Below are positions 8,859-64,000 of a stretch of DNA of 64,000 bases, one piece after another. How positions within the stretch are numbered: the first letter of the stretch is position 1; each line of letters begins with the position of its first letter. The position numbers and the translations under genes are program-made. This stretch comes from Acanthochlamys bracteata (Eukaryota; Streptophyta; Magnoliopsida; Pandanales; Velloziaceae). The DNA lies in the NCBI GenBank assembly GCA_019914995.1, contig CM034145.1:4347262-4411261 (forward strand), read 5' to 3'. The notes under the pieces are model-generated. The model did no database searches, was not told the origin of the DNA, and saw nothing but the letters and a program-made list of their open reading frames with translations.

Positions 8859-11755
8859 GAGACTATTAGAGATGAAAAAATTGGTCGGGTCAAACGGGCC
8901 GGCTCAGTTTTAGGCCAGCCCGGTCTGGTGAACTGTGGTAGGATGGAGCCGGCGCGGTCCGATTCGATGGGCAGGACGGGCTAACTTTGCTGGCCCGCTC
9001 GTTCGGTACTGTGTAGTTGATCGGTCAATATTGATCAATGATCATATAAAAAAAAATTAAATTCTGTCATACTGACGTCAGTATTACGTCATGTTGCGTC
9101 AGCATGACCGTTGGAGTGGCGTTGCTTGCAACGTTAAATTTTTTTTTTTTTTAATTTCAACTTTTCACCTATAAATTACATCATATTTTCATTCATTTTT
9201 CACACAACTTTCTCAATTCTCATTTTTATTCTACTCAATCTTACACAAAATTATAAAAATAATTTTTTCTTATTATTAAAATTTACATTTCAATAATTCT
9301 CAAAACTTTTAGTTGTTATTTCAAATGGATCCAAATTTTCACGCCATTAATTTTGATATGGATGACTATGGCATGGACGATCAAAATTTGAAAGAAATAG
9401 ATGCTGCCCGTATGGAGAAAGCAGATGATGTTTCTCTAATACAAAGAAAAAGTTTTCATCAAGGATGTAACGAAAATTCTCCAATTTTAAGTGTTGGAAG
9501 TAGTTCGGCTTCAGGATCGACATCAACAATAACAAAACATTCAAAAGTCACAACCTCTGAAGCCTGGAACTATTTCACTGCCGAATATACAGTGCTAAAT
9601 GATGGTACTAAATCAAAAATGGTGAAATATAAGTTTTACAAAAAACTTTTAACTGCAAATCCTAATGCAGGAACCCGATATTTAATAGCATATGGTAAAA
9701 AATATGCTTCCAAAAAAGAAATCAGAAGGTAATCTTCACAAACTCAACTTCAATTCAACACGGATGGTTCGGTAAGTAATTGGTCTTATGATTCTAATAT
9801 AGTCAGAGAATCTCTTACCCGTATAATTTGTGCTATGGATTTATTTATCAATTTTGTTGAGTCATCTTTTTATGAAGAACATATTAAAAGAGCATATTGT
9901 CCGCAATTTCAAAAAGTTAGTAGAACAACTATTAGAAGTGATATTATTACTTATTACAATAAATGCGCACTATATTAAAATCTGAATTAATTTCATGAAA
10001 TTTTTCTATTGCATTAACATCTGATATTTGGAGTGGTAGAGCTAAACAAGATTATTTAAGTGTTGTTGCACATTATTTAGATTCACAATTGATTATGCAA
10101 AAAAGAATTATTGGTTTTAAACTTATTGATTTCATATATGATGTTAAAAATATTTCTGATCGCATTATAAGTGTAGTTAAAGAATGGGGCATAAGCAACC
10201 GTATTGTTTTCATCACCCTAAATAATGCTTTAGCAAATACCAAAGCAATTAGATTTCTTGAGATGGAGCTAAACTCATACATGGGAGAAATTTTACTACA
10301 TCAATATTGTGCTTGCTATATTATCAACTTGATTGTACAATCAGGTATGCAGCTGGTAAGTACACAGATTCATGATATTCAGGTTGCTGTTTTTTAGATT
10401 ACTAGTTCAAATCAACGTTTAGCTGAATTTAAGAAATATTACATAGCAGAACATCTAAGGCCCCGAAAGTTCAACCTTGATATGCTAGTAAGATGGAATT
10501 CTATTTATTTAATGTTGGAAAGTACTTTAGATTATAAAAAATGTGTTTATGATTTTTTATAATACAAGAAATGGTAACAATATATTTACTAAAATTCATT
10601 GGATTATTGCTGAAAAACTTGTAGAATTTTTAGAAACTTTTTATGATGCTACTGTTTTATTATCTGGTGTTTACTATCATACTTCTCCATTAGTTTTACA
10701 TTCAATTCTTAATATAGCTATCATACTATATTCATATGTAACTGATAAATTATTTGGTCCTATAGTTATAATAATGAATAGAAAATTAAAAAATATTAAT
10801 ATGATATTCCTCTTTTATATTGTTTTGTATTTATGTTAGATCCTAGATTTAAATTTGTGTATTTTACTAATACTCTTACATATATTGGTATGTATTTAGA
10901 TATTTTCGATATTTAATTGTAAATAACTAACGCTCGTAACAAGCTGTACGAAGTTTATGATATTTATGAAGTTAGATTTGGTAATTTACGAAATCAACAA
11001 CAGTAAGCGGCATCGGCACAAACTCATCAAAGTAAGAAGAAAAAAACGATCAATTGGTTTTTGATCTCCATCAAGTCTGGCTCAACTTCAACACCATCTT
11101 AAACTTCAAGCAGCATGCAATCTTCTTCTGACTTGAACAAATATTTTGAAAGAGATACTGCATTGTAGAAGGCGATGAAAATCCAAAAAATTTTAATATT
11201 TTGAATTGGCGGAAGACACATTCAACAAGATATCCAGTACTCTCTCAACTAGCACGTGATATTTTAACTATTCCTATTTCAATGATATTTTTAGAATCGG
11301 CATTTAGTACAGCCGAAAGGATAATTGAAGAACGCAGAACACAACCTACTAGTGAGATGTTGAAGTGCTAACTTGTTTGAAAGACTGGAAACTTGTGGTC
11401 AAAAAAATGCAACATACAACTCACAATGAAGACCTGATTGAACAATTTTCTGAATTATTTTTAAATAAAAATATTCCAAATACAAGTTCAAATGTATAAT
11501 TATATACATCTTACAAATTGTAATAATATTTTTAGTTATTTTTTAAATTTTTTATATTTAGTAATAATTTTTAAAGTTATTTTCATTTTTATATTTAATA
11601 ATATTTTTAAATATTATTTAAAATTTATTATTTAAAAAATAAATAAATAATATGCCGGCAGGCCAGGCCGGGTCTAAAAATTTACACCCGGGGCTGGCCC
11701 GGCTTTCTTATTTGGCCCGATTCGGCCCGCCTATTTTTGCACCTATAGAGATTAT
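8859..11755 (+). mobile_element. hAT element with decayed transposase
   Basis: The element spans 8867-11747 (about 2.9 kb). Its flanks GAGACTAT (8859-8866) and GAGATTAT (11748-11755) form an 8-bp duplication with one difference. The ends TAGAGATGAAAAA and TTTTTGCACCTATA are imperfect inverted repeats, with GGCC/CCGG-rich subterminal DNA on both sides. Inside lies one broken transposase gene. A related sequence at 6124-6178 appears to be the same locus type without the insertion. It is dead as an autonomous element, but its ends match the short hAT relatives nearby, so it belongs to the family that could have mobilised them. Confidence 0.8.
9325..11500 (+). pseudogene. hAT (RICESLEEPER/DAYSLEEPER-like) transposase, broken
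   Basis: The first frame opens at ATG 9325 and runs to a stop at 9730-9732. It includes a Ser/Thr-rich N-terminus, then a BED-finger-like segment (SEAWNYFTAEYT, KFYKKLL, AGTRYL) in which the expected zinc-binding Cys/His positions are mostly Tyr or Phe, so the finger is probably dead. Downstream to about 11160 the hAT core is recognisable only in pieces, for example LDMLVRWNSIYLML near 10480, with many stops and frame changes. The C-terminal dimerisation region is clear at about 11185-11375: NWRKTHSTRYPVLSQLARD, then ESAFSTAERIIEERRT. Family knowledge: this transposase cuts and pastes elements with 8-bp duplications. Confidence 0.85.
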
Positions 11756-28788: not shown

Positions 28789-29445
28789 CTAGAAGAGCTT
28801 GGCCTTCATCATCTGCTTGAACTCATCAAAGTTCACCGTTCCGTCGCCGTCCAAATCGACCTTGTTTATCATCTCCCTGCAGTCTTCCTCTTTCAACCCT
28901 TGCTTCAATCCTAACATCCGTAGCACTGAACTCAGTTCTTCGAAACTTATGACTCCATCTTTGTTCCCATCAAAAACATCAAACACTTCTTGAAGATCCA
29001 TCTCATCTTCTATTTCTTGATCTCCTTCACTTCCTCCTTCAGTTGTTGTTGTATCTCCATGGCTCACCACCGAATCGTAAAGATCGCGAAACTCTTCGAC
29101 ATCTATAAGACCGTCGCGGTTCTTATCGACCTTCTCTATCAAGGCAACAACTTCTTTGTCAGAACAAGAGAGACCTAACCTTTTCAAAGACTCGTCGAGC
29201 TCTTCTGTAGTGATGAATCCATCTCCATCTTTGTCAAATGTTGCAAATACTTGCACAAGCTGGTCTGCCTTGTTATCAAATACTACTCTACGGTCACCAT
29301 CGTCGTCTGTCTTCTTTGAAGCTGAAGCAGCAATAGCGTTTTGCTTTGCTGGAAGGAATGAAAGAAGCCAAGCCATGAACTTTGGAGAATACGAGTTGAG
29401 AAGACCGCAAAGAAAGATAACGGCAAACAAGATAGAGGCAATCAT
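28789..29445 (-). CDS. CML: Membrane-anchored calmodulin-like Ca2+ sensor (four EF-hands)
   Basis: A single exon of 218 aa. Residues 1-32 are strongly hydrophobic (ILFAVIFLCGLL, then MAWLLSFLP), like the N-terminal signal anchor known for the CML3/CML5/CML7 group, where it directs the protein to endomembranes. A short Ala/Ser/Lys linker follows. Four canonical EF-hand loops lie at residues 71-82 (DKDGDGFITTEE), 107-118 (DKNRDGLIDVEE), 159-170 (DGNKDGVISFEE) and 197-208 (DLDGDGTVNFDE). Each keeps Asp at position 1, Gly at 6 and Glu at 12, so all four should bind Ca2+. An acidic spacer (about 130-148) separates the two EF pairs. The length fits CML5-like proteins. Family role: a Ca2+ signal relay that binds targets when loaded. 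The exact CML number cannot be given. It converges with the DnaJ gene 1.5 kb away. No intron was seen. Confidence 0.93.
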   Translation of the reverse strand: MIASILFAVIFLCGLLNSYSPKFMAWLLSFLPAKQNAIAASASKKTDDDGDRRVVFDNKADQLVQVFATFDKDGDGFITTEELDESLKRLGLSCSDKEVVALIEKVDKNRDGLIDVEEFRDLYDSVVSHGDTTTTEGGSEGDQEIEDEMDLQEVFDVFDGNKDGVISFEELSSVLRMLGLKQGLKEEDCREMINKVDLDGDGTVNFDEFKQMMKAKLF

Positions 29446-30051
29446 GGTTGTTGTTTGTTTGTTTCTTTCTCTCTAAGATCTCTGAGATGACTGAAGAGTT
29501 GAAGAAGAGAGGGAATGGTGGCGTTGGAAGGAAGCGAGCGACGTGAGGAGAAGGGAAAGAGAATAGTTTTTTAAAGTTTTTGCGCGTCGCAAGTTCTAAA
29601 TTTGTTTCTGTTGTTGTTATCCCCACAAAAACGCGTTGAGATTGATAGATGCTTATTTATTAAGAGAGAGTGAAATCGATCATTCAACGTACATTCATCA
29701 TCACTTGCTTATAATATTCTCAACCAATAAACAAAAAGAAAAGAAAGAACGGGTGTGTGCTTCATGCTTGAAAAAAAAAGACTTTTGCTTTTTTCTTTTG
29801 AGAATTGGTAGAATTTAGATATCAGCTCTTGATTTTCTGACTTTTTACGAAAGCTATAAGAAAAATTGGAAACTATGAGATTTTAACCTTTTTTTTTGTT
29901 TTTAAGCTAGTTTTTGGGTTGACTTTTATCCATAGGTGAAGTTCTTTCACCAGTGTTTACCAAACATTGTCTATAGTTTGCTCTATCATATTCGCAAACT
30001 TGGAGGGAGTAATTTTCAAGAAACCAATGTAATCAATATATAGTAATTTTC

Positions 30052-36270: not shown

Positions 36271-39200
36271 ATGCATTCTTTCGGTTACCGAGCGAATGCT
36301 GTGTTCACGTTCGCGCTCACGATCCTCGCCGTGATGTGCGGCTTGGCTTCTCTCTCTGATAACTTCAACTCCCCTTCTCCTTCCGCCGATGTCAAGGTAC
36401 CAGCTCTCTCGAATCTCTTTCGAATTTTTGTAATATTTTTCTTGTTTACTTGATTTGTTTTTATGCGTTTTAAAAATTCTTTTCTGAACAAAAAGAACGC
36501 TTCTTGATTGACAGGGTGGATTTTTTTTTCTGTAATTCATTCAGTTGGAAATCTTGGGATTTTCATTTTCAAGAATTCGTTTGAAGTAATACTTTTCTAT
36601 TTGAGTCCTTTAAATGAGATGGGTTCTTTGGACTCTTAGGATTGTCGAGTTGCCGAGAAGTATTTATTGAAAATAGAAAACTGTTCAAGGAAGCAAATTC
36701 CAACTATACTAGTGTGTAATTGTGTCTAGATGTGTAGATCCAAATTCTTGATAAATTTGTGGATTTCTAGAAATTTATTTATGGTCTACTTGTTTATCAT
36801 TTAATGTTAGATAATTAATGATTTAGGATGTACATTTGATGAAATTCAAGTATGTAAGCAATACATATCCACTCAAAATTGTCTCTTGAATCTTGATGGT
36901 TCCTCTTCTTAAATATTAATTTGGAGTGTGCAAAGTGGTTGTCCAAAGTGTTCCCATGATGCATAAATAGTATCGGATTTAGTTTCTCTTTGTGATGAGG
37001 AAGCCCAATAGAGTTGGTTTGGATGCAACATAACAAGCTGGTATTGGTTTCAATCCAATTTGGTCTGGTTCATATCCGTAATTTGGGCCTAAGGCTAAGA
37101 CATATAATGTAACTATAGTCATCTCTTATTGATGTGATTGAGAGAAGATTAAAGAGAAGGAAGAGCGAGTAAGGTTACTGTCAGTGTTTTAGGGCTTACT
37201 CTTGTGAGTACTAGTGTCCGTAGTTATAAGGTGAAGAGAACATCTCACTGATTTTCTTCAACTTTCTCTTGTTTTATATCCTTTCCCTGTTATTGTGAGC
37301 TTATAATTGTCCGTTGGGATTGGAGGAAGGAGTATTTGTTTGGGGATGTGACCCGTGGTCTTTTCTCTTTCAGGTTTTTTGTGTTGGAAATTCTTGTGTT
37401 TTTCAATTGAACTCTCTGTAATTTTGTTATATTACTAGTTGCTATGATAGATTGAATAGTTTATGTCACCTTACAATTAACATTGATTATTACTTAGATG
37501 TTTGTCGTACTTCCTATAGTGTTGCCTTGGATAGTGAGTGTTCTTCTTAGTGTTCCACGTTTTTGGAAAGTCATCTCCTAAACGCAGGCGAAATACTCCT
37601 AGCTCTAGATCCAAATAGAAAAATTATAAGGAGCCTTCACAAGAACAATGGAGAGTAAGACAAGAAAAAGATTATCAAGATTTTTGCTACACTTTAAGAA
37701 GTACGGTCTCAAGCACTCCCTAAAATATACCATAATACTCTTACAAAAAGTTTAAACTCTCTTCTGTTTGTACTGTTCTCCTCCAGTTTAACACGAGATA
37801 GCAACCATATATTTAGAAATGTCGTAGGTGCATAATGTATTAGACACAGACCACACCAAGTTGGATTGGGACAATACCAACTTGTTGTGAACATCCAGAC
37901 CATTTTTGTTGGGCTTTCCTTGTTACAAGGAGCGATCAAACCTAGCATGTTGTAAATATACTTTCAATTTTTTGTTCAAAAGAACTTCAAAATGTTTGAA
38001 CACATCCATCGATCATAACATGATTAGGTTCTAGACTTGTTCATTGCTAGTCATAGTACCAGAGGGGAGAAAGGTAAAGTTATTTGATTCTAGTTAATTG
38101 AGACGTTCTTTACCAAGGAGGATACTAACAACATTTTCAAGCTGCTTTATGATTGCATGATTTCTTGCTTAAGTGCCACTTCTTTGATTACACCTTCTTT
38201 TGTGCTTTCTAATTTGTCACCAGAAATTGTGTAGAAGGAAATGATTAAGACTTGGCGATGCCCCTTCTTTGATTCCCCCTTTCCAACTTATTTCCTGCGT
38301 CTCTCTCTCAATTTCGTGCAAAGTGTCCTACTTTCTCCAGTATCGAGTGTGTGGGCTGTGCAGCTGACTCTATGAATTGAGAATTGTATATGTAAATATG
38401 TAATTGGGTTTAAAATGTGAATGAACATTGATCTTATGGCTCAGTTGCTAGTGTTTGAATAATAAATGTAAGAAGAGCTTAGCTAGTACAATGATGTTGG
38501 TTACATAGGAACTTAACTTGATTTAAATCTTTCTGTACATCTATACATGTTTTGATAAGCATGTGGACTTTGTTTTAGAGGTCTGTAATGTCTGATAAAG
38601 TTTTTGAAAACTTAAAACCAAGCTTTAAGTTTTTTTTTAGGATAAAAAAGCTTTAAGTGACATATATAAGTTGGCAGAAGAAAATATCATGATGAATGTG
38701 TAGTGAGAGTTGGAGCTGTGGAAATGTCAAATTGAAATCAAAGGTTGAGAGACACGGAGTACTCATTTGGTTGCCACTCGTCTCATAAATGGTAAAACAA
38801 TATTGATTAAGATGTACAGGTAGTCACTTGTGCTTTTAATCTATATCTAAAGCTGGAGGCTGAAAACCTAATGATGCTTTATGGAGTTAAGGGAGTTGTC
38901 TTGAAAACCTTCTCATCATCTAGTTGTAGTCTTGTCGACTGATGCCGTCATATGAACCTTTCTCTTTCCTGTAACAATGTGCATTAGACGTTATTATGTT
39001 TGTACTCTGTATGCATATTTCTGTACTGCAATTGCATATTTGGTTGCTTCGATTCTTTATTTCTGCATGCTGTCAAAATGTTTCTTTGGGCTGTTTTAGT
39101 TTATTTTGAAGTTTTTTGCATCTCCTCATTTATGCGAAGGATTAAATTATGTGTTTTTCTAAACTTTCTTTTGGTTGTTATAGGTGCTAAACATAAATTG

Positions 39201-48502: not shown

Positions 48503-48670
48503 AAGCCCTTTAAATTAGTCATGTCTTCCCACAGCTTTCTTGACCTTCTTCTTCGATCGTCTGCAATGAAGAACTCTCTCTTTCTTAATTACAGTAAAGC
48601 GCAGAAGAGAAGTGCATGAGCAAATCAGTAGAAGTTCAAGAAAGCTGTGGAAGGAAATGGCAAAGGGCAT
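48503..48670 (-). ncRNA. MIR396: MIR396 precursor 1 (miR396b type)
   Basis: On the minus strand the 5' arm at 48652-48632 matches 21-nt miR396b throughout (UUCCACAGCUUUCUUG, ending AACUU). The 3' arm at about 48545-48525 reads GGTCAAGAAAGCTGTGGGAA and pairs with it. The extra G that bulges opposite the 5' third of the miRNA is typical of the family. The lower stem closes with GCCCTTT against AAAGGGC (48504-48510 and 48662-48668). The plus-strand reading would give TTCCCACAGC, then TTGACC, which is not a known miR396, so the minus strand is chosen; a minus-strand TATA box supports this. Known role: guides cleavage of GROWTH-REGULATING FACTOR mRNAs, limiting cell proliferation in leaves and flowers. 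Confidence 0.93.
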
Positions 48671-48737
48671 TCACCATCAATGAAAATCACTCTCTTCCGC
48701 TTTCGCTTTTGCTTTTGCTGCTTCTGCTGGTAGATCC

Positions 48738-48749
48738 CTTATATATATA
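48738..48749 (-). promoter_or_regulatory. TATA box of MIR396 precursor 1
   Basis: TATATATATAAG on the minus strand, about 85 bp upstream of the mature sequence. Transcription would start near 48708-48715, leaving a short leader before the hairpin. Confidence 0.6.
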
Positions 48750-48829
48750 CCAAAGCAGTTGGTGACTTTTCCGTGTGACCGTACTGTTGTGCACTGCATC
48801 AATGTGTGCATAGCCATATGTGGTTTTTA

Positions 48830-50880
48830 GGATACGTGTGATTATTGAAAAGAAGTTTTTTAAAAAGAAAATATATTTTAAGAATTTTTATAAAATAAAT
48901 TTTATTTATTTTATTTCAAAAAAATAAAATACGGCGCGTTTCTAACGTTCCAAATTTTATTTTTATTAAATTTAACTTTAATATAAAATAAATAAAAATT
49001 TTAAAATATACTTTTTAATTATTTTTAAAAGAATTTATTTCAATATAAATACACTCATATTGTTTTAAAACTTGAAAACTCGAGTATATTCGAATTTCAT
49101 TCTGTAGCACACTTGTTAGGAAATATTATTATTTTTATTTTATTTTTTTATTAAAAATGTTTTTTTACAGTATTATGGAAATTTTTCTAGAAAAATTTGA
49201 ACAATATAATATAAATTATATATCATAAATTTTTAATATATATATATATATATATTTATTAAAATAAGCTTCTTTTTCAAAAATTTGGTAACGACACGAG
49301 CTCGTCAGTACGCATAACAATTTTCTATTGCGTACACTTACTAGATTATTGAACGTAAATCTGTGCACGAACCCATGCAAACAGGCTTAAAAGCAGTGTT
49401 GATCATTATTCCAATGATTCATTCATTCGTTCATAAAGATAACTTTTGGCAGTAAAATAAGTTTATTTTTTATTAAAAAAAGTTATATATATGAATTATG
49501 ATATATAATATTTTTCAAATTTAAAGACAAAAATTATAAAATATAAAAATTTTATAAAAAATAATATTATAAATACCGTCAAATATTTCTACTTCAGTAA
49601 ATTAACAGAATCCAAAAGCTACATGCAAATCCTTCTTTCTTCCTGAGTTGCACTTGCTCAAAAAATACACATACATAACTTGTGAGGAACTTCACAAACA
49701 AAACATTTTTTTCCTGACAACACATTGTTGTTTTCTTCTTTATTTTTCTTGGACAAAAAAATATATTACTTTACTTGGAAAACTATATATCAACACCCAT
49801 GTCAAGCTTTGGTTTTTTTTTTTTTTTTGTACATTGTCATAAAGTTTTTGAAGTTTCACCGTTTAATTACCTAACTACTATGTAGCAAGATTTGTATGTT
49901 CCAAACTTTCAATCGATGAAGAATTCTTCTAGAATTCTAGTTTCAATACTACTGGGTTTGGGTGATTTAATTCTCCGTAAATAATCCCGCAAGTGAAAGT
50001 TTTTTTGCTAAAAATTTATTTTCAGATAATTTTTATAAATTTATTAATTTTAGAAACTTATGTCTCAATAACTTACGGAAAAATAAAACACGACCTAAAA
50101 TTCTTCGTCTATAATATATTTAGTGACATAAGGAAAAAAGACACTACAGTGCATATAAACTCACTAGTGTATAGTTTTCACATTTAATATTTTTCTTAGG
50201 ATTCTAAATAATGATGTTAAAAATGGCATATATCCTTAAATTTATAATGCCTAATATTCACAAAAATTGATTTATAATATAAGGGGTTGCATGGGCGTTC
50301 AATAATAATTATTGAACAGATTAAAAAAAAACTTCTTACTTTAGATTAGAATAATATTGTACGAGTTTGAAAACACTACTAAATCGAATACTTGTAAGTT
50401 CATCCAAACATGTATAAGATATCGGAGCTTGTTCTTCTAATTAAGTTAAATTAATTAGTTTTAAAAATGGTGTTAGATAAATCTACATAATCAACTCAAG
50501 ATGATAGGTGAATTGAGTTGATGTTAAAAAAATTTTATTATATAATTTTCTACAAATAGTAGCTATGTAGTCGCTTATGTCTATGTGAAATGTCAGCTTC
50601 TGAGTGGAATTTAAAATATACAAAAAAATAAATAACTTTCATAAACACAAGCATACAAAAATTTACATGAATGGACAAACTTCTTTGACTATATTCATGA
50701 TCACTCTTCGTTAAAAGTGAAAAGTCTACTGATTCTTAAAAGGCTACAATCACCATAACAAAGTGTTTAACCCAACACACTTACCTTACAGGTTTTTTTC
50801 ACAAGATGAACTTGTTACAACCTCCTAGACACCTGTCTCCGGCTGGATAATAATAGCTAATTTAACTCTACCATAACTTA
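48830..50880. other. AT-rich spacer, no gene seen
   Basis: Probably includes the promoter of the first MIR396 at its left edge. It contains an AT dinucleotide run near 49235-49253 and a T-run near 49814. The 64-codon frames at 49648 and 49993 (+) are of low complexity. Confidence 0.4.
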
Positions 50881-50892
50881 GTCAAGTCCTAT

Positions 50893-51047
50893 CACCAAGT
50901 ACAATATGCACTTAGACAAGATTTAGTGTGGAGGTCACGATCTCATAATTTATCACAGAATCTATCTCACACCAAGTGCAATATGCACTTAGACAAGACT
51001 TAGTGTAAATGTCACGACCTCATTGTTTATCACAGAATCTATCTCAG
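50893..51047. repeat. Tandem repeat, two 77-bp units
   Basis: CACCAAGT(A/G)CAATATGCAC starts at 50893 and 50970. Both units continue with TTAGACAAGA(T/C)TTAGTGT, then GTCACGA(T/C)CTCAT and ATCACAGAATCTATCTCA. The units differ at about ten positions. Confidence 0.9.
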
Positions 51048-51099
51048 AATAATAATTAATCTCAATGTAAGTAAAATGAGGAGATCAAAAGAAATTGCT

Positions 51100-53450
51100 A
51101 AGTATTGTGTCAATTTGGAGATTTCACCAGCTTAGTATAAAGAAGTAGTATTGGCTTTTAAAGTCTTCTTTGTATTTCTATTTTTCACTTGTCTTTTCTC
51201 TCTTAACTTGAAGGTTAGCCTTCTCTTTTACGTATATTGCTCTTTTTTAACGGCTCTGAAATATTGAACTTCAAATAGTTTGAATTTCTTTCTTTGGTAT
51301 TTTCAAACAGTGTCATGTTTATTTTCCGGTGTCATCTATGCCCGGTTGATAGATCTTTAACTGCTTTTGTAAAACTTTTGCTAGGTCTTTAGTTAGCCCA
51401 TTAACATTTAATTCTCCTTTAACTTAGCTGTGATTTTATCTTCTAATTATATTAAATGCAGTAGCTTTGGACTTTAAATTTCTTATTTTTTGTGTTTTTT
51501 TGGCATGCTGGTGAAATTCTTTATTCTTGATGTGGCCCCTAGCTAAAAAATGACTCAAATTGGATGGCTGGAATTAAACAACATCGAATTTAAATTCACT
51601 GATTGGCAGGGTTTTACTAGGTGTTCCTTGGCTCGATGTTAGCTTTTGGTTGATTTGTTCTTCAATTCCTGAATTGTGTAATCATTCTCTTCCTTCAACC
51701 CATGTTGCACAAATGAACTTGATCATCATCTTGATGCTTTGACATGATGAATTTGTGACATGCAATGGATGATGGCTTGAATCTTCTTCCTGAAAATCAT
51801 TATTAATTTTGTATGTCTTCTCTTTTTTCATCTGCATATATTGACTCTTCCAAATTGTTTCTTGGTATATGGCTTAGCTGGTGTTGTAGAAGATACTAGA
51901 TTAGTCATATGTTAATACATTGTAATGCAATCAGTAAATATTTCTTGAAGGAATACGAAATCTAAATATTGATTGCATTTTTGTGTTGCTAGTGAGTATA
52001 GTCTTCATAGCTCTTTTGTCGTGTACGTATGATCTCTTTATTGTGAATTTGATTAACTCTTATTGTTGATATGTGTCATTGTGTCTTCAAATTTTTGTTT
52101 CAAACATATGACAAATTCTTGATCAAATTCTTCCAATTGTTTTGAAAATTGAATTTTCTTCCAATTGTTCCATGATTTTTCTAAATTGATTCCAGCAATT
52201 TTTAAATTTCTGCAGCTTACTATTTTATGAGTTTCTTCCAATAATTTTACGATTTTTCTAAACTTATGTAGATCGTAAGTTAACGAACTATTAGATTGAT
52301 ATTGTTTTGTGCACATTGCTCTAACTTTGAAGAGAAGTTGGGTTACAAATAGAATCTGCATCATCTTTAAATCGTCTCTGAAAAATGAAAAACGATCACG
52401 ATCTCTTAGATTTTAATTAGCAGATATATAGCAGTAAAATAGACGACTATCAAGTTCTATATTCTTCTCAGTTTGCAACCTCACCGTTTTATGTTGACAC
52501 TTTCTCTATTATTGTTCTTGCGCTCGATGAAGAGTTATCCTATTGTAGTTGATGATTAGTCTGACATGTATGATGATTAGACTCACTTAGCCAATTAGAT
52601 TACTATAAAATTTACTTAATTTAGTTATACGTTAATTGTTGATAGTTAAAGTTTATATGCTTACGTTTTAATGCTATATGATAAGAATTCATTCACTTGC
52701 AATATCTCTAAAGTTTTTTGTTTTAATAAATTTACTTAAGCTCATATTTATAGATATTTACTAGCATATAACCAAGTTACAAAATCAAATACCAAAGCTA
52801 CTTTTTACCTTTTTTTGTCTAAGCAGTGACTTTTGTCGAAAGAATGTTTTGTAAAGTGCTATTAGATTAATAAATTCCACTTATTAACTTGTCAAGATGC
52901 ATAGCTTCAATTATAAAACATAATAATCAAATTTAATTTCTCGCACAAAATATTGAACCGAGAAATTGAAATCGTAAGTGGATAACCCTAAACCCATACA
53001 AATAAATAATCGATATAATATTAGATAAGTATTGGATAGAAATAAAGATGGAGTTAATATTTCATGAATCATGAATATCATGATACTCCATGGTCCCCTA
53101 AACTGCTTCTACTTATTTGTGCAACTTACACTAGCCTAGCCATTGTCCTTCCTACCATTCCCAACTCTTCATGTATGATCTATGAAATGTGTAGTACAAT
53201 TTGCTTTAGCTTTAGATTCATCTCCTTTTATGGAATAATCACTACTTTCATGCAAAAGTACTTCTTAAGCACTGAAAAAGCTTACATTTTAAAGAAGGTT
53301 GATGAAGACTTCACTTATGATCCAAGTGGTCCTACATATTCTTTTTATTTCTTTTTATTTATTTTCTTTGGTTCTTCTTGCATTTTTTAGAAAAACCTGA
53401 TATTCCATTAAGAAAAAATATGAAAAGTTAATTTTGAACAATTAGAATTT
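51100..53450. other. No gene recognised
   Basis: T-rich plus strand. Frames at 52053-52364 (-, 103 codons, Lys/Glu/Gln-rich with a coiled-coil look) and 53064-53390 (+, 108 codons, hydrophobic) resemble nothing I know. The segment may be an old mobile element, but no termini were found. Confidence 0.35.
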
Positions 53451-53480
53451 AGGGTTTAGAATTTAGAGAACAATCTACTA

Positions 53481-53727
53481 ACTGTTTGGGCTTATCAGAA
53501 AAGTAGCTTTTAATTTTTCATCTCATATTTTTTAATACATATTTTATACGTATCTAAAAATTTATTTAAAATTTTAAAAAATGTAGAAGAATTCTACGTA
53601 GTGAGATCTTTTTATTGCATATTTCTATTAATTTTTTAAAATAAAAAATAAAGCTTGTTTCTTAAAAAGAATAAAAATACTTTTAATTTTAGAAAAACTT
53701 TATTTCATAAATACTCCTAAACACCTC
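53481..53727 (+). mobile_element. AT-rich MITE copy (family A)
   Basis: Forward copy from ACTGTTTGGGCTTATC to AATACTCCTAAACACCTCC. The centre TCTACGTAGTGAGATC is well kept. Confidence 0.65.
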
Positions 53728-54468
53728 CTCATTCTTTTACATGACATAAAAGAGATTATCGATTAGAGGCTCCCTTAGATATGTAACATTTTGGGTGTAT
53801 TTTTTTTATCCTTACGGCTCATTTTTTTACTAAAATATTAAGGATTGAATTAGTTAAAAAATAAATTAGAGATAAATTTAATAAATTCGAAATAAACTTA
53901 AATATAAAAAATAAATTTGAACATAAATTAACATAAGAAAGTAAGTAGGTGTAATTGAAACAAGCTCTGAATTAATGTGCTTTAAAACTAAAATGGTTCA
54001 CTAGATTCCAACTCTTGGACTTGTTTGTGTATGGATTCCAACAGTTTCGCAAAATTTTATGACTATTTTATTTATTAGTTGAATGTTCTAGTCTGTGAAC
54101 TTATAATTTACTATTTGTGAACATATTGCTACAAGTTTGTGAATGCATATTTTGTTTGATTTGCGTAAGCAAAGTTCATTAGTTTCTCTGCGCGCGTTCT
54201 ACCCACATGTAGATGCATAGTTTAGAAATTTGTGAACACATAATTTACAGTTTGTCAACACAATATTTTTACTGATTTATGAGTACCTGCAAGCTATCTT
54301 CGCTTAAAACTCACTTTTAAATTAAAATAAATATAAAAGTTAAATAAAACATAAATTTTAATTTCAAAAATCAAATTTTAAAATTTAGAATTTAATTTTT
54401 ATACTCATTTTTAATAATAAGTAAATACAAATACTAAAATTAATTTCGAATTTTAGTTTTTAAGATGC

Positions 54469-54722
54469 GTTTGAAAGTGTTTTTAAAATGAAGTTTTTCT
54501 GAAATAAAAAATATTTTTTTTATTTTTAAAAACGAGCTCTATTTTTTTTATCTAAAAAAATAATAAAAATAATCGTTAAAAAGATCTCACTATGTAAAAT
54601 TTTTTCTATACTTTTTAAAATTTTAAATAAATTATCTAAATATTTATAAATTATATATTAAAAAATATGAATCAGAAAAATTAAAAAATTATTTTTGAGA
54701 AATGCTAAGCCAAACAAATAGC
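54469..54722 (-). mobile_element. AT-rich MITE copy (family A), reverse
   Basis: Reverse copy from AGATGCGTTTGAAAGTG to GCTAAGCCAAACAAATAGC. Both ends are preserved. Confidence 0.65.
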
Positions 54723-55438
54723 TCATTTTCACAAATTCTAGTAAAAATTTAATTCGGAACAAAAAAAAAAAACAAACGCAATATATATGAACATATAGTC
54801 TATTGATCTGCGAAGATGAAGTTTGTGAAGACATTAGTTTTAATTTGTGAAAATACGCTAGTGAAGGGTTATTCAGATAAGTTATAACACGGAAGGATCG
54901 ACTTTAAAAGAATTGAGTTTAAAACTTCAAACTCAAAATCTTGAGATTGTAAAATAGTTACGACTTATAAAACCATATATAGGATTGACTACAATTTCTC
55001 CAAAGCAAACTGTAGCTATATTCTCTCTGTCTCATTCCAGTAAGATTTATATTTAATTATCAACAGAGAAATTAAACGGTCCCATGAATATATATGTTCA
55101 TCTCTAAGTTTACTTATTCTAGTAAATGCAATAAGAGTCATATTTACAACTTCACTACCGGTTCTTTTCCCTTTTTTTTTTTTCTTACTTGACAATGAGA
55201 TATATGGTGTCTTTTTTATGTAATTATATCAAAATAAGTTTCATAAAAGTGAGTTTAATAAAAATAAAGTTTGATAAAAATAAAATCGTTAGAAGTACAT
55301 TTGAAATGTTAACTTGAAATATATAAATAAAATTTAGAGCTAAATTTTAGTAAAAGTGAATTCGGTGTGAAGTAAAAATAAAATTTAGATTGATAGTCGA
55401 AATATAAAGCGATCGAATTCAAAAGTAAAAAAGAAGAG

Positions 55439-55655
55439 TTTTTTTATGTTTAGAAATATTTATTGAATTTCTTTTCTGAAAAGCAAGATATATTTAAAAT
55501 TTTAAAAAATAAGTTTTATTTTACTTAAAAAGTATTAAAATAAATAATAATATGATCTCACGATGTAAAGTTTTTTACTTTCTAAATTTAAAAAAAATTA
55601 AAAAATATTTTAAAAATATAAATAAAAAAAAAAATACTGATAAGCACTTTAAAAC
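55439..55655 (-). mobile_element. AT-rich MITE copy (family A), reverse, worn
   Basis: It keeps the ATGATCTCACGATGTAAAG centre and GATAAGCACTTTAAAAC at the right. The left end is unclear. Confidence 0.4.
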
Positions 55656-55659
55656 ATGA

Positions 55660-57240
55660 ACATGGCATAGCGGGGTTAATATTGGAAATGCCGGAGGTAG
55701 TAGGCAACAAGAGTTACGGTGAGGCTCTTAAACGTACAGCAGGGGACCCAATAGAACGTGAACTTTTCAGCATGCATAATATTCAAGTAGTGAGTTTAAG
55801 TAATTAACTAGCGACCGTGCACCTTCTTTCATTTTTAGCAGAACTTTTCCAGTTAAAGCGAATGGAATGCAATCAGTATAATGTAGTACGACGAGATGTT
55901 TCATTCTTTTGTTCACCTCCAGCTTTCTAGCTAGAGCTACATATGAACGTTATAAGTACCGCAACTCATCTTCACCTGCTCGCAATTTAATCGCCCGAAA
56001 GTGACATATCTTGCAGCAGCCCCATGCGAGATAAAGAAATTCACTTTCTAAAAGCAATTAACAGATGAGACTTTTATCGGAGAGAAGTTAGGCAGCCACA
56101 ACGTAAATATTGAAATCATCATTGATATCAATCATCGATCGGCACTGTGATCCAGCAGCCAACATGTGAATGGGGCATGGGGTGCGGAACTTTTCGACCA
56201 TTTTTTCATGGTGGTACCGTTCACTTGTTCTGAAGCTAGCTAGCCAGAGAACCTGATCATTTAAGAAACTTCACCTGCTTTTCCTCCTACCTTCATGTTT
56301 GATGAAAGATTTTCTAACTTTATATATGTAAATATTGTCCTTTGCACGACTGTAAATCGATCGTAACACTGATCAGTAGTAGCAGTAGTTTCTTGATATA
56401 ACTTCAGTAATTATGTTTACAGTGATACGTGCATGATATCAACTACATGCGACCTTCCACTTATCGGGCAAACGAAACACTTTGGTAGAAAAAGTTGAAG
56501 GAAGTAATGAAGAGCGAGCACGATTGCCTGCCTGCTCCGGTGGCGGTGAAATCGTACTACTTCTAGCTAGCAGCAGCTGGTGGATCGATCGACTTAATTA
56601 ATTGTCCAGTTCTTCATTGGTGGTCCTTAACACCAGGCTGGCTTTTCTATAACCATGCACAAATCTAGATATCTATGTATTCATATCGAGTAGATTTCAT
56701 CATGCATTTAAAATATTATTCGATCTGTTATGTTCTCCTAATTATGGTTCTGTAAAATTTTCTGTTAACTGCTGCACACGTAACAAGGAAAAAAGTTAAT
56801 ACTCAATAGCTATATGCATACGAAATCTGGGACCGTCATATAAATTGATTCCTGATCGATGGAAAACCACATATCGATCTATAGATCTATCCATCGGTCC
56901 CAGGAATATTAATCATTGGTTTCTCATCATCTTCTTCGTTGTTGCTGCATAGCGCATGATTCCATTGTTATTACTTCGCGAAATCATTCATGCACAACTA
57001 GCTGGCTACTTGTTCGATCACCGACAGTATATATATAATTAAGATGAAACTCTAATAAACTGTTACTGCGTATGTAAATAGAATCATGATGTTTGTGATC
57101 TCTCCTGTGAAGAGAAAAAAATGTCTGCTACAATATTGTTTTACCCTCGATCTCTACTGAAGTTCGGACGACAAGCTCTTTAAAGAATATTGTCAGAAAG
57201 AAAGGCCAAGGAAGAAAGCAAGCAGCCATCCAACCTCCAC
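55660..57240. other. No protein gene; probable regulatory DNA of MIR396 precursor 2
   Basis: Less AT-rich than its flanks and non-repetitive, with several GATCGATCG and CTAGCTAGC palindromic words (for example 56238, 56563, 56584). No frame longer than 60 codons. The promoter role is inferred from position. Confidence 0.35.
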
Positions 57241-57252
57241 CAGATCAAGTGC

Positions 57253-57260
57253 TATAAAAT
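57253..57260 (+). promoter_or_regulatory. TATA box of MIR396 precursor 2
   Basis: TATAAAAT, about 175 bp upstream of the mature sequence. Initiation would be expected near 57285-57292. Confidence 0.55.
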
Positions 57261-57410
57261 CTCGAGAAGACAAGCTAGCTAACTAAGAATTTCCATATAC
57301 AATCATCGTTGTAATATATATGAATTTCTTAATTTCTAGGTACTTCTCTGCTGATCCGGTTCTTGCTGTTTGATAATCTTGTTTGGCATCGGGAGAGATG
57401 GATAATTTTG

Positions 57411-57530
57411 CAATGCTCTTCATCCCTTTCCACGGCTTTCTTGAACTTCCGTGGCCGATGATATGCGTTTATGTTTATTTGTTGGTAAGGAAGTTCAGGA
57501 AAGCTGTGGGAATGTATGGAGAGGTTGGAC
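57411..57530 (+). ncRNA. MIR396: MIR396 precursor 2 (CGG seed variant)
   Basis: The mature sequence at 57428-57448 reads UUCCACGGCUUUCUUGAAC then UU, that is miR396b with G instead of A at position 7. The same variant is, from memory, annotated in poplar. The 3' arm at about 57491-57512 reads AAGTTCAGGAAAGCTGTGGGAA and pairs along the arm with the usual bulge. The lower stem continues with CTCTTCAT against ATGGAGAGG. The loop is only about 40 nt, shorter than in precursor 1. On the minus strand the arm would read TTCCCACAGC then TTTCCTGAAC, not a known miR396, so the plus strand is chosen. Its target is expected to be GRF mRNAs, with a G:U pair or mismatch at the changed position. The minus-strand frame over the hairpin (57329-57532) is a shadow. 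Confidence 0.9.
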
Positions 57531-57559
57531 ATGATCAGCTGATTTAGGTAACATTAATC

Positions 57560-58150
57560 TTCGTTCTCAAGTTATTCTCAACATTACTCTCTTTCTTTTG
57601 TGCGTGTTCTTCTGATTTTACGCTTAGGTATTTTTTTATTTTGGTACCTTCAGTTAATCAAAGCTAGGATGTATATTACTTACTATATATACATAGAGAG
57701 AAATTATTACATGAAGTAACTTTCGAAGTAAATTAGTACACGATCAGCTTAGATAATACTTGCAAATATCCTATAATTTCACTTGTTTAATCACTTCATT
57801 TGCTTGCCATGCATGTTTTGAAAGCATAGTAATATATAGGAATGTTTGTTACGTTTATCGAAATCAATTTTTAAGTAGGTGTCTCTTTAGGCCATATTTT
57901 GTATAAGAATAATTTCATATATTCAATTCATCATATTAGATAGAATTGTTGTGTTCCTAGTAATCATTTAAACCTTATCCGGATTAATTTTTTAATACGT
58001 ATTTGGCAGAAAAACACTTAACTTTTATAAAAATCTTAAATTCTTAAGTGTTTCCCAAATATCATACCATTTATTTATAATTACATCAACCTTATAGAAT
58101 GCTTCAGTGCGAAAAATAACATTTCTCTTTAGAATCAGTGCAATTCTACT
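57560..58150. other. No gene seen
   Basis: Downstream flank of MIR396 precursor 2. It probably holds the end of its primary transcript. Confidence 0.35.
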
Positions 58151-58152
58151 TT

Positions 58153-58402
58153 GGATGTGTTTGATTCAGCTTATAAATAATTTTTTAATTTTATATTTTA
58201 TATTTTTTAATATATATTTTATAAGTATTTAGAAAATTTATTTAAATATTTAGAAAGTATAAAAAAATTTTAACGTAGTGAGATATTTTTATTGTATATT
58301 TTATTATTTTTTTAGATATAAAAAAAATAAAACTTATTTCTAAAAAAATAAAAATATTTTTTATTTTATAAAAATTTTATTTTAAAATTATTTCCAAACG
58401 TC
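58153..58402 (+). mobile_element. AT-rich MITE copy (family A)
   Basis: Forward copy from GGATGTGTTTGATTCAGCTT to AATTATTTCCAAACGTC, close to the family core throughout. Confidence 0.7.
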
Positions 58403-58620
58403 TTTTTTATCTACTGCAGAAACTAGGAAGGCCGAAAAGACAGTTCCTAATAATTTGGGCCTAATTGAAGATAAAAACACGTTTTGTTAGAAATTACAAC
58501 AATCTAGCCCATTAAGAAAGGTCTAGTACCCATGTGGCCTAACGAACAACCTACAAAAGAACTTCAGATTAATTCAACAAAAAGATTACTTGACTAAGGT
58601 TTTCACAACTTAACTGCAGT

Positions 58621-58822
58621 ATTGTTTGGCACTCCATTTAATTTGATTTACTATTTTATTTACATATTTTATTTTTTAATAAATTTTTACAGTATTTAAT
58701 TTTTTAAATAATTTATATAGTACAAATAATTTGTATCTCATAAAATATTTATTTTTAACAAAAAATTTTAAAAATAATTAAAAAAAAATTTTCAAAATTT
58801 TAAGTACTTCCAAACAATCCCA
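58621..58822 (+). mobile_element. AT-rich MITE copy (family A variant)
   Basis: Begins ATTGTTTGGCACTCC and ends AAGTACTTCCAAACAATCC. The 9-bp ends ATTGTTTGG/CCAAACAAT are perfect complements. Confidence 0.65.
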
Positions 58823-59912
58823 ACAGCTTAAATGATAAAAATTAGGATCCAATTGCTTTGGAAAAAAAAATCACGTATAACCAAAGCCTAAACAACATTG
58901 GGTCCCTAACGTTGAATTAATTTTCTTTCTTGCTTTTTTATCTTTCCAACGAATGTCAAGTTGCCAACCAAATTCTAGTGAAAGTGGGGCAGGAAGGTTT
59001 CTAGAGGGAGATCATGATGATCTTCATAATCACCTAAAACTATTTTGCTTATAATCACTTTTCAAAAAAAGCTGTTTTTCTGATTTTTCGTTGTGCTATC
59101 ATGTTGATCAAATTTTTTTTTAAATTTTAAATTAAGCTTCAGTCACTTTTCCGCTAGCAAAGATTTAACGGCAAAAACATATATACGTACATTATGCTTA
59201 AGCTACTAATTGGTTAGACACAAATAAATTAGAAAAAATCCTAAATTCTTTTTCTAAATAATATTAAAAAAGTTTTTCTTTTTTAAAAACTCTTAACGTT
59301 TAAACAACTTCAAATAGATCCTAAATTTGGACTTTGAGAAGCTGAAAAGCTGCGTTGTGTGATCAATCAATTTTATTTGTGTTGGGTAGGCGAGTGACAA
59401 GATCAAATTCAAAAACAATTCAATCACTATCATGAATCATCCAATTGCTAATGAAATTGTAAAGATAAATTTCCAATCTGTTTAAAGCCCTAATTGGTGT
59501 TGGCCAGCTCTAATGTTACATGTTTTGTCCTCAAATCTACTTCAACCAAAGCATGACAACTAATAAAGTTAATCTTTTGTCTATAAAGATCATGAACATA
59601 ATGCTAATGTTTAATTTTTCAAAATAGTAAAATGTGTTTTGTGTCTGTTGTTGTTTTATGTTAGGAACAACTACATAATGAAATGTTCCTTTAAAGTTCT
59701 ACTAACTACAACTTTTTCATCATTCATCGTTTAACACTTTCTAATTTTATTTCTTTTAGCTTTAGGATTAGTTATGATAATTCCAACCTAAGGTTTAAGA
59801 AGGTCTTTAAAAGCCAACACATACATAGAATTAGATTCTCTCTAACTTTGATGTTGTTTGCTGTTTCACTTTGCTAGCGAGGTTTAACAATTCGATCAAT
59901 CACTAATAAAAG

Positions 59913-60118
59913 AAGTGTTTGAAATTGTTTATAAAATAAAATTTTTTTAAAATAAAAAATATTTTTGTTTTTTTTTTAAATAAAATAAAAAATTTTTATT
60001 TTCAAAAAATAATAATAATATATAATAAAAATATTTTGTTATATAAAATTCTTTTATATTTTTTAAAATTTTAATAATTTTTAATGTATTTATAAAATAT
60101 ATATTAAAAAAGTACCTA
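59913..60118 (-). mobile_element. AT-rich MITE copy (family A), reverse
   Basis: Reverse copy from AAGTGTTTGAAATTG to AAAGTACCTAACACG. Confidence 0.55.
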
Positions 60119-60564
60119 ACACGATGCAAAACGGGGCTGGATGTGAACTAAAGAACACATTCATGTTAAGAAATTGTAAATATAAAACTAGTTTTTCATG
60201 TTAAGAACTTTTATTTACTTCAGAATTATAGCAAAGTTAGTAATAAATTCACCCTTCCTAGAATTCAGCTTCCTTTTTAGGTTTGTTAAGATTGTGTTCT
60301 TTTTATAAGTAATTTTTTGAAAAATAAATTACTAGAAAAATGAATTTTTAGAAATATATTCTAAAAAATAAGTTAACTATAAACAAGTGATGGTTTGGGT
60401 AAGAAAAGTTAATTTCAGATTGAAAAAAAAACACTCTCATATGTCAATATGAAAGAATAACTTAAATGTTACTACTTGTTGTTTCTTGAGCTTCTATAAT
60501 GTTGAATGAACAGAGCATTCATTATTACAAGTTACAACTCATTCAAGTATGCATGCATGGTTAA

Positions 60565-60782
60565 CGGTGTATATTTTTTAATTAAAAGTGAGTTATTCAA
60601 AATTAAATTAATAAACATAAATTGTTATAAATAATAGTGTTTGAAATAGATTTAATTTTTAATTATTTATAGAATGAAATAAAATGAAAGTGATTATTAT
60701 GTTTTTTAACTAATTAGAAGTGGTTTTTAAAATGAGTTTTTGATAAAAAAAAAATGAATTATAAGAATTAAAAGAACACACT
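60565..60782. mobile_element. Short MITE copy (family B)
   Basis: Left end ACGGTGTATATTTTTTAATT and right end AATTAAAAGAACACACT, imperfect inverted repeats. A shorter candidate with GTGTTCTTTTTATAAG/GAAAAAAAAACACTCTC ends lies just before it (about 60295-60437). Confidence 0.5.
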
Positions 60783-60983
60783 ATAACTCTTTCATGCTTT
60801 TACAAACTTTGATGAACCAATCAAAACACCAGAAGTTGAGAAATGAAACATCAAAAGAATTAACAGTTGTTCATGTTACTGATCATGTGAAATAGAGCAT
60901 GGTGAAGAAGGAAATGTAGCATGAATATATTTTCCATTTTCATTCATGAAGAACTACTCCTGTTTTTTAACTTTATTCCTATC

Positions 60984-61184
60984 AAGGGTACCTTTTTTTG
61001 GCTTTAAAAGTAAATTTTTTAAAAATAAATTTTTTAAAGTGAGTTATTATAAATAATATTATTAAAAGTGATATTTTTTATTGAAAATAAGTTAAAAATA
61101 ATTTTTGTATTTTTTTAATAAAAATAAGTTAGAAATAAATTTTTAATAAAAGAGAAATCATTTCTATACGTAAAAGAACACATC
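60984..61184. mobile_element. Short MITE copy (family B)
   Basis: Left end AAGGGTACCTTTTTTTGGC and right end GTAAAAGAACACATCT. The interior carries AAAGTGAGTTATTATAAATA, also present in the truncated copy at 47141. Confidence 0.55.
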
Positions 61185-61455
61185 TCAAATTTTTTAACAT
61201 ACACCAGTGAGAGGAACTCCAAACTATGAAATCTTTAATATAAGCATACAATATGGGATATTTGAAAATAGAAATTTTTGAACAAAAAATAAAATATTGA
61301 AGATTGAGACGGTAAATTTAGGACGTATTTATTTCACAATAAATAAATTAAAAATTTTTTTATCACAAATTTATATATAATAAATTATATTTAATTTTTA
61401 AATTTATTATTAAAATCTTATTTTTAAAAATTAATTTTTAATATCCTACGTAACG

Positions 61456-61679
61456 CAATCGGTTCTTCCGATAGTTGATTTCTTCTAACGCAGTCGTTTT
61501 TCTGAATCCTTTACGTTGGTACAAATTGCGTCTAGAAAATCTCAAAGAAAAGCCAGAATATTGAAAACTTTTGCACATATTTACTTGATCATAAGTGATT
61601 CTAATATTATTTTTTTACTGTTTTATAAAATTACTTGTTAAAACTTATTTTTTTACGCAGTCAGTTCTTCTGATTGTTG
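61456..61679. repeat. Two diverged 22-bp direct repeats, each able to fold
   Basis: CAATCGGTTCTTCCGATAG (starting 61456, followed by TTG) and CAGTCAGTTCTTCTGATTG (starting 61658, followed by TTG) are related. Each has a 4-bp stem around a TTCTT loop: TCGG/CCGA in the first, TCAG/CTGA in the second. Confidence 0.5.
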
Positions 61680-61739
61680 ACTTGTTGGAACAAAGTAAGA
61701 TAACGACAAAAAAAAAAGCACAGAACTGAATAGAGATAA

Positions 61740-63690
61740 GACTCGTTAATACTGTTGTTGTGCCCGTGCACACACGGGCGAGTGCTTCGTGGCATGTACC
61801 ATGCACGTGCGCACGCACGGACTTTCTTCTCCTATCTGTTTGCAAAACACAAACAGCTATACTGGAATAAGAAAATACACAATCATTTCTATCAACTAAC
61901 AAATTAAAACCAGGAACAGGTTGTAGATGATGAGAAGAAAAACGCATCTAACACAGCACACGCTCGTAAAAATTTTAATAAACACAAAAACAACCCACAG
62001 CTAGCTAGCTAATATTAATAAATCTCCTAATTAATCTATGTTTTTAAAGTTTATAATATATTTGCTGCTCACATGCGTGCATGTGTCAGAGAAAGAACGA
62101 CATAGTTCTACTTAAACCATTACAGATTAACGACTAATGCCAGAGAGATTATGATGTATATCTTATTTTGTATTCATTCATTCATATTATTTAAGAGTTG
62201 ATTAACTTCTATTGGTTTGAGTGATGAATTGAAACGCGTACGCGAGAGTGGGAGTGGGGACAATAAAGGACAGAGCGTTGCTGTTCCCTTCGCCACGAGC
62301 ACCGTCATCGGTGAATCCGGCGACAATCACAACCATTCATTCGTTCATCGATGATCGATAGAGTTTGTTTGTTTGGTTCTTTTTTTTTTGATAATCAGTA
62401 CTAGCGAAGTTTCCTAGACATATATATACAAAAATAAAAATAAAGAAGAAGAGAAGAAGAAGAAGAAGAAGATCTAGTTGTTCTGAGTCGTCTGACAGCG
62501 TTGTTGTTCAGTTGTCCAGGAAATGGTGCTAGCTAGCTGTAGCTGGTGTTATATTCTATAGAAGGAGGTAGAAGTAGAAGAAGAAGAAGAAGGATGGAAA
62601 AGGTTTTGAAGGAAGGTGCAAGCAGCAGAGCAGACATCTCCGCATTTGGTGATCCAATACTTGTTAACACACTAATCCATGGAAAAAATATTGGAATTCA
62701 TGTAGCAGTGCTCATCAACACAGTCCACCCAGAAAAAATTTTGTTTGTTGAAACTAGAAACTATAGTTTTTATTGAAAAAGTGAAAGGCTTTTTATATGA
62801 ATAGAATCAATAAGCGATAATTGAAGTTCAATTATTTTAATTTAATTGTTGAAATCGGTAATTACGGTAACATAAATTACCGTTCACATGTGGAGTTGGA
62901 ATTGATTAGTACTACCTATATATCTTCTTCTAATATGCATGGGACTCCCTCACCCACCACTACCACACTAACAAAACCAAACAAACCAACAAAACAAAAA
63001 TTTTCTATTCATGCACGATTCAATAGGATTAAATTAATCCAAATCCAAAAAAAAAAAGAAGAATATCTTTATCATATTCATTCATTAGTTGGCTTAATTG
63101 AAGACCTCCCCCAAAAGTCTTCATCATCCTTTGAGACAAACCCTTCCCCCTAGCGACAACCCAAAAGTTGTATTCCACATTTCTTTATTAATTAAAGTGG
63201 TGGCAATATTTTGCAAATTCAGGCCGGCAATGTTATCTTTTCAGTTCACTTTGGTCATTATAACCGTGTTTGGTTATTTTAAATCATAATAGTGCAATGC
63301 AAAATATACAAATTTATGAGGTCTTATTTTGCAACATACATATACAAATAACCTTATGGTTACACAACATACAAAAGAAGTTTAAAATCTCGATAAGACA
63401 ATTATCAGAACCTTTAATTGCGATAAGTATTATATGAGGTCTGAATTTGAAGAATTCTAAAACCAAAGACTATTATCAGCACCAACAGTTGCTATAAGTA
63501 CTATATATGGACTGACTTTGCAAAATACTACAAAAAGAAAATTTGTAGACTTTTTTTTTTGTTTTTGAATGGGCCCTATTTAGGGGTTTAATACTTAATA
63601 GAGAGAGGCCTATATTCTTCTCGGGATTGGATCCATTATTGTTTCAACCAACCCCCACGAGCCCCTCCCCCTTCTCTTCTTCTTCCCCTT
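61740..63690. other. No protein gene; probable upstream DNA of MIR396 precursor 3
   Basis: It contains a GCCCGTGCACACACGGGC inverted repeat at about 61762, GAA runs at about 62441-62471 and 62566-62592, and a more GC-rich stretch at 62225-62340. Frames at 61645-61947 (-), 62546-62776 (+) and 62821-63153 (+) show no family signature. A non-coding transcript start near 62350-62550 is possible but unproven. Confidence 0.35.
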
Positions 63691-63696
63691 CGTCTC

Positions 63697-63704
63697 TATA
63701 TATA
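63697..63704 (+). promoter_or_regulatory. TATA box of MIR396 precursor 3
   Basis: TATATATA just after a CT-rich stretch (CCCTCCCCC, then TTCTCTTC repeats) of the plant Y-patch kind. Initiation would fall near 63728-63736, about 190 nt before the mature sequence. Confidence 0.7.
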
Positions 63705-63910
63705 CATCACCCGTTCTTCTCTATTCTTCTCACTCAACCCTAGCTGTCTAGCTCAAAGCTCATCTACTCCTTTTCTTTTTCTTGTAAATACTAGCTAGTT
63801 TAACAACAACAAAGCCTTCATCTCTTTCTTGTAACAACAGAGCTCTATGATCTCTTTGATGTAGATTGAGGTGTTGAAAGTTTTATTATGGTGCGGCATG
63901 GCATGGCATG

Positions 63911-64000
63911 GCCCTCCTAGTAGTCTTCCACAGCTTTCTTGAACTGCTTTATAAGACTGTTAGCTGCAGTTTTCTTGATCTATAGAAAGAAGTCCTGATC
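63911..64000 (+). ncRNA. MIR396: MIR396 precursor 3 (miR396a type), 5' part only
   Basis: The sequence at 63926-63946 is identical to miR396a (UUCCACAGCUUUCUUGAAC, ending UG). The preceding CCTCCTAGTAGTC resembles the base of known MIR396a stems. The following 54 nt are loop and upper stem; the pairing 3' arm (expected to read like GTTCAAxAAAGCTGTGGGAAG) lies beyond position 64000. The identity rests on the perfect 21-nt match, the TATA-containing promoter and the neighbouring family members; the fold itself cannot be confirmed here. Confidence 0.88.

Follow-up and report, generated by a model that had tools for sequence, protein, structure and literature searches.

MIR396 hairpins in the window

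We analyzed a 64 kb stretch of the Acanthochlamys bracteata genome (C20:4347262-4411261, hereafter the window), together with the 195.5 Mb assembly that contains it, and found that it carries three linked hairpins of the microRNA (miRNA) family MIR396. The b-type hairpin, whose mature sequence ends in CUU, lies at 48511..48667 (-), with the mature arm at 48632-48652 and the predicted star at 48525-48545. A variant with an A>G change at miRNA position 7 (hereafter 7G), also ending in CUU, lies at 57413..57527 (+), with the mature arm at 57428-57448 and the predicted star at 57493-57513, and the a-type hairpin, ending in CUG, occupies 63911..64000 (+), where it is cut by the window end, with the mature arm at 63926-63946. 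The mature miRNA is in the 5′ arm of all three hairpins; two of the mature 21-mers are exact miR396 sequences (one with each end) and the third is a 7A>G form already in print. The span from the first to the last mature sequence is 15.3 kb, with neighbors 8.8 and 6.5 kb apart, and the original prediction of three MIR396 genes within about 15 kb was thus accurate, as it was in the coordinates, strands and ends of the mature sequences.

These assignments were supported by a core scan and by folding. A 20-mer miR396 core, allowing up to three mismatches, matched five places in the 64 kb: the three mature arms, at 48633-48652 (-), 57428-57447 (+, one mismatch) and 63926-63945 (+), and two star arms. 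Chance matches were rejected, since 100 shuffles of the window gave none and the reversed-pattern controls in the genome scans were also zero. Each hairpin was compared with 200 shuffles of its own sequence, none of which was as stable: the b-type (48517-48662, -) folded at -53.2 kcal/mol (z -5.1), the 7G hairpin (57413-57525, +) at -60.0 kcal/mol (z -9.0), and the a-type, completed with genome sequence, at -54.0 kcal/mol (z -5.8). Cut at base 64000, the a-type did not fold (z +0.34; 120 of 200 shuffles were equally good), and it closed once downstream genome bases were added, as had been anticipated for this precursor; its missing 3′ arm was looked for and a predicted star was found at C20:4411274-4411294, corresponding to window positions 64013-64033, 13-33 bases past the end. 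The star positions and the geometry of the duplexes are predicted from the folds, and across the three duplexes there are zero to one unpaired bases per strand (one per strand for the b-type, none for 7G).

A default Rfam scan of the window returned no entries, as all three hairpins fall below the curated 80-bit cut-off of RF00648 (MIR396), with 69.0 bits for the b-type (E 4.7e-13), 65.4 bits for 7G (E 5.1e-12) and 78.1 bits for the complete a-type (E 1.5e-15). Across the genome, the same model returned 18 rows that represent both strands of nine MIR396-like places, six of which belong to the trio described here and to a second trio on C19; a single row, that of the C19 a-type, passes 80 bits.

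A mirror-image trio on a duplicated block

The C19 trio consists of an a-type gene at 2154235 (-), a 7G gene at 2162427 (-) and a b-type gene at 2181573 (+). It is the mirror image of the C20 set of b (-), 7G (+) and a (+), with order and relative orientation kept. Comparison by blastn of 83.5 kb of C20 with 70 kb of C19 gave 37 segments, 30 inverted and seven not, and by manual count of the table 23 of the 37 fall into one ordered chain with 63-83% identity; a reversed-sequence control gave three hits of at most 65 bits. One end of the chain lies next to SPCS3 and the other at a raffinose-synthase gene, with the b, 7G and a genes in between; the raffinose-synthase gene was recognized by a domain match and is 81.6% identical between C20 and C19 over 2.8 kb. 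For this pair, Nei-Gojobori (NG86) estimates of synonymous divergence (Ks) in two open frames were 0.73 (366 codons) and 0.47 (127 codons), the frames being stop-to-stop and possibly including a few non-coding codons.

The two blocks share, in order, the raffinose-synthase, SPCS3, EF-hand and GRF genes. The first exon of the SPCS3-like gene (signal peptidase subunit, SPC22; PF04573, E 3.8e-7) lies at 36271..36453 (+), its end being approximate, and has its best other genome match at C19:2195052-2195255 (74% identical), while the EF-hand (calmodulin-like) gene, a collinear neighbor at 28789..29472 (-), has its best other match at C19:2209901-2210566 (79% identical); both fit the inverted order. 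Further out, each block has a GRF gene, on the same side of its trio, at C20:4029151 and C19:2616434, approximately 0.38 Mb and 0.45 Mb from the respective 7G genes.

Since a collinear block on C19 carries this trio too, with gene order and relative orientation unchanged, the linked trio predates the duplication of the block. Similarity in register between the a, b and 7G types is confined to the hairpins, which suggests that the local duplications are older still; the other weak matches between the loci are out of register and resemble repeats or AT-rich sequence. The presence of the trio on C19 supports the original view that an old local duplication kept the a-type, b-type and 7G genes together. 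The block itself probably stems from an ancient duplication of the whole genome or of a very large segment, and a polyploid origin is made more plausible by pairs of GRF genes at like places on C1 and C2.

Promoters and transcription units

Candidate promoters were assigned by motif, scanning the 400 bases upstream of each mature sequence for TATAWA. The b-type gene has a TATA-like run at 48739..48749 (-), starting 97 nucleotides (nt) upstream of the mature sequence, with a further match at -240, and the 7G gene has TATAAAA at 57253..57259 (+), 175 nt upstream, with further matches at -113 and near -396. Upstream of the a-type gene, the motif TATATATA lies at 63697..63704 (+), 229 nt from the mature sequence; it recurs in the counterpart on C19, directly downstream of a conserved stretch. 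On C19, TATAWA matches were found at -212 and -114 of the a copy and at -210 of the 7G copy (TATAAA, at about the same place as on C20), while the 400 bases upstream of the b copy contain no TATA-like motif. Similarly, upstream sequence is conserved between C20 and C19 for the 7G and a genes and little conserved for the b gene.

The b-type gene points away from its two neighbors, and its position on the opposite strand rules out a single polycistronic transcript for all three. The opposite strands, the individual TATA-like boxes and the individual conserved upstream sequences suggest separate transcription units, and the simplest reading of the sequence is that the three genes would have independent promoters. 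The original suggestion of shared regional control was not borne out, given that each gene in the window has its own TATA-like box and the b-type is divergently transcribed. Protein-coding genes between the hairpins were considered and rejected: five open reading frames (ORFs) in this interval (52053-63153) gave no Pfam match above the family cut-off, the best being a match to an unrelated family with E 0.018, below its cut-off.

GRF targets and the position 7 variant

The genome contains 21 GRF-type sites with up to three mismatches, 14 with zero to one and seven with two to three; all 14 of the former lie at or beside WRC-domain matches, and a reversed-pattern control gave two matches. Predicted pairing with the canonical site is -28.5 kcal/mol for the a- and b-type sequences (7A), which leave a C bulged, and -30.0 kcal/mol for 7G, where the bulge moves to the neighboring U. 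The gain of 1.5 kcal/mol computed here compares with a gain of more than 2 kcal/mol given for the replacement of an A-U by a G-C pair in the accessible part of Debernardi et al. 2012 (PMC3252272), which also describes 7A>G in Selaginella, pine and poplar and defects in Arabidopsis slightly stronger than those caused by the common form. The 21-mer UUCCACGGCUUUCUUGAACUU appears in earlier print as well, including as grapevine Vv-miR396e (PMC3145640, accessible part). The A>G at position 7 that the original prediction listed as a third seed variant is therefore real, although it is not new, having been described and tested before (PMC3252272); this gene belongs to a recognized class of variants and not to one that has been retargeted.

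The GRF gene that lies approximately 0.4 Mb from the trio in both blocks is likely a target. Its C20 copy carries a T>C change in the miR396 site, with a predicted pairing of -24.0 compared to -28.5 kcal/mol, and the C19 copy keeps the canonical site.

Other MIR396-like hairpins and an insertion-type form on C1

In eight of the nine MIR396-like places, the mature sequence is within two mismatches of miR396; these are the three on C20, the three on C19, and one 7G-form gene each on C3 and C5, the surrounding DNA of which is 63-69% identical in the three longest matches. A tree of the precursors recovered the C20/C19 pairs of the a, b and 7G genes and the C3/C5 pair and placed the ninth hairpin, on C1, beside C3/C5 (support 0.88), with a weak grouping of a and b (0.40). 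Outside the nine hairpins, near-matches with two mismatches were noted at C13:4242465-4242485 (-), C8:6525618-6525638 (-) and C12:1285313-1285333 (-).

The C1 hairpin (C1:4528862-4528991, -; -69.5 kcal/mol, z -10.0) has an inserted base in its mature sequence. The predicted mature form is the 22-nt UUCCACAUGCUUUCUUGAACUG, in which a U is added between positions 7 and 8; its predicted star is 20 nt, giving an asymmetric 22/20 duplex. Bulge-free pairing of this form is predicted with GRF sites of the A-type on C1 and C2 (-33.4 kcal/mol) and with the G-type site on C18 (-33.0 kcal/mol), forming 19 consecutive paired bases on A-bulge sites and, through one G-U pair, on G-bulge sites; on the canonical site it pairs at -29.0 kcal/mol, with a mismatch instead of a bulge. 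Of 15 insertion-type matches genome-wide, the C1 hairpin accounts for one, and the remaining 14 are the reverse reading of GRF sites. A hairpin with an inserted G was not found in the genome, all nine exact matches to that form being reverse complements of GRF sites; this absence speaks against a grass. A 601-base piece around the C1 hairpin matched nothing in the genome besides itself, and the 21-letter core, in U or T spelling, was not found in the literature searched. If expressed, the C1 hairpin would carry more weight than the trio, because a bulge-closing miR396 is described as monocot-only in the accessible part of PMC3252272.

Origin of the trio and alternative explanations

Taken together, these data make it highly probable that the three MIR396 genes in the window are of the ordinary kind, each transcribed separately, that they descend from an old local duplication, and that they were copied together by the duplication of a segment, probably of the whole genome. 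Local duplication would have yielded the b-, 7G- and a-type genes, and the later duplication of the whole segment the C19 trio. RNA polymerase II would transcribe each gene from a separate promoter, and a Dicer-like enzyme would cut the precursor to a 21-nt miR396. This miRNA would repress the growth regulators of the GRF family by way of their conserved site, located in the region of the WRC domain; in the 7G form, the target bulge would shift from C to U and a G-C pair would be gained.

Several observations weigh against this interpretation. Fourteen of the 37 blastn segments are off the chain, seven of them in the opposite orientation and the strongest with 189 bits, and the two Ks values disagree and both come from a single gene. 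Because similarity between the types is restricted to the hairpins, the local duplication is deduced from linkage and family identity, not from flanking sequence. None of the three hairpins in the window reaches the 80-bit cut-off, and 7G pairs slightly worse with GRF sites whose bulge base is A or G (-27.8 compared to -28.5 kcal/mol). Finally, the C19 b-type (C19:2181573-2181593, +) combines the missing TATA-like motif with a C13>U change in the mature arm that lowers its predicted pairing to -25.9 kcal/mol; its hairpin still folds (-44.1 kcal/mol, z -5.2), and this copy may be weakening.

The range of predicted pairing would also allow a set of miR396 forms of graded strength, comprising 7A, the tighter 7G, the weaker C13>U and the 22-nt bulge-closing form of C1, with the trio kept as a unit since the grades act together; we regard this as unlikely. 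Somewhat less credence is due to a single co-regulated domain, in which a shared enhancer, a chromatin domain or a joint 7G-a transcript would control the genes and selection would have kept the trio on both segments. The retained order and relative orientation are compatible with such a domain, but plain collinearity would equally yield them. A further point in favor of a domain is window 59335-59896, which lies between 7G and a, contains no ORF of at least 80 amino acids and is 68.7% identical to C19 (273 bits); against a domain stand the b-type on the opposite strand, the separate TATA-like boxes, and the conserved upstream sequence that 7G and a each possess. Nothing we found requires regional chromatin or enhancer control, which we rate as improbable.

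It is more doubtful again that one or more of the loci in the window are decayed copies making no functional miR396. The altered b partner on C19 and the sub-threshold Rfam scores would fit decay, but the z-scores of the three window folds range from -5.1 to -9.0 and the predicted duplexes are clean. In addition, the a and 7G genes have the same mature arms on C19 as on C20 but different loops, as would be expected under selection. Lastly, although two similar arrangements in one assembly could suggest a misplaced haplotype or duplicated contig, the chain identities and Ks values given above lie far beyond the divergence of haplotypes, and an assembly artefact was rejected as extremely improbable.

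The explanation by local followed by segmental duplication implies that linked a, b and 7G MIR396 genes predate a large duplication and persist on both daughter segments, and family trees of MIR396 should thus take account of position in addition to the letters of the mature sequence. For annotation, it adds three genes here and nine MIR396-like hairpins genome-wide, most of which are missed by the default Rfam cut-off. Elsewhere in the window, a run of ORFs at 9313-10839 (+) looks transposase-like by eye, which is a guess; four of its ORFs gave no match in Pfam.

Comparison with known MIR396 systems

A linked cluster of three MIR396 genes was not seen in the literature searched, which does not establish its absence from print. 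Counting against a claim of novelty are the tandem MIR396 pair of date palm described below, three MIR396 genes on sorghum chromosome 4, for which the accessible text shows no distances, 13 miRNA paralog clusters in maize, with members only partly listed in the text available, and 14 miRNA clusters within 10 kb in pear, the membership list of which lies outside the accessible text. The trio adds another example to a known class; it is helpful for annotation but unsurprising.

The Arabidopsis miR396a and miR396b genes are on different chromosomes. The genes described here resemble miR396a and miR396b of Arabidopsis and other eudicots (RF00648) in their CUG and CUU ends, in the 5′-arm position of the mature miRNA and in the bulge of the GRF site near positions 7 and 8, but differ in the linkage of three genes within 15.3 kb and in the presence of another such trio on a second segment. 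The 7G form shares its position 7 change with the miR396 of Selaginella, pine, poplar and grapevine, whereas here it stands between an a- and a b-type gene on two segments and has further copies on C3 and C5. Local duplication of MIR396 is also represented by the date palm tandem pair miR396e/f, 135 bp apart according to the accessible part of PMC3738527; in contrast, the genes in the window are 6.5 and 8.8 kb apart, lie on both strands and have their own TATA-like boxes. Finally, the C1 hairpin parallels the monocot form of miR396 that carries an additional G between positions 7 and 8 (PMC3252272, accessible part), since its extra base falls at the same spot and closes the GRF bulge, but its inserted base is a U and its predicted duplex is 22/20 nt.

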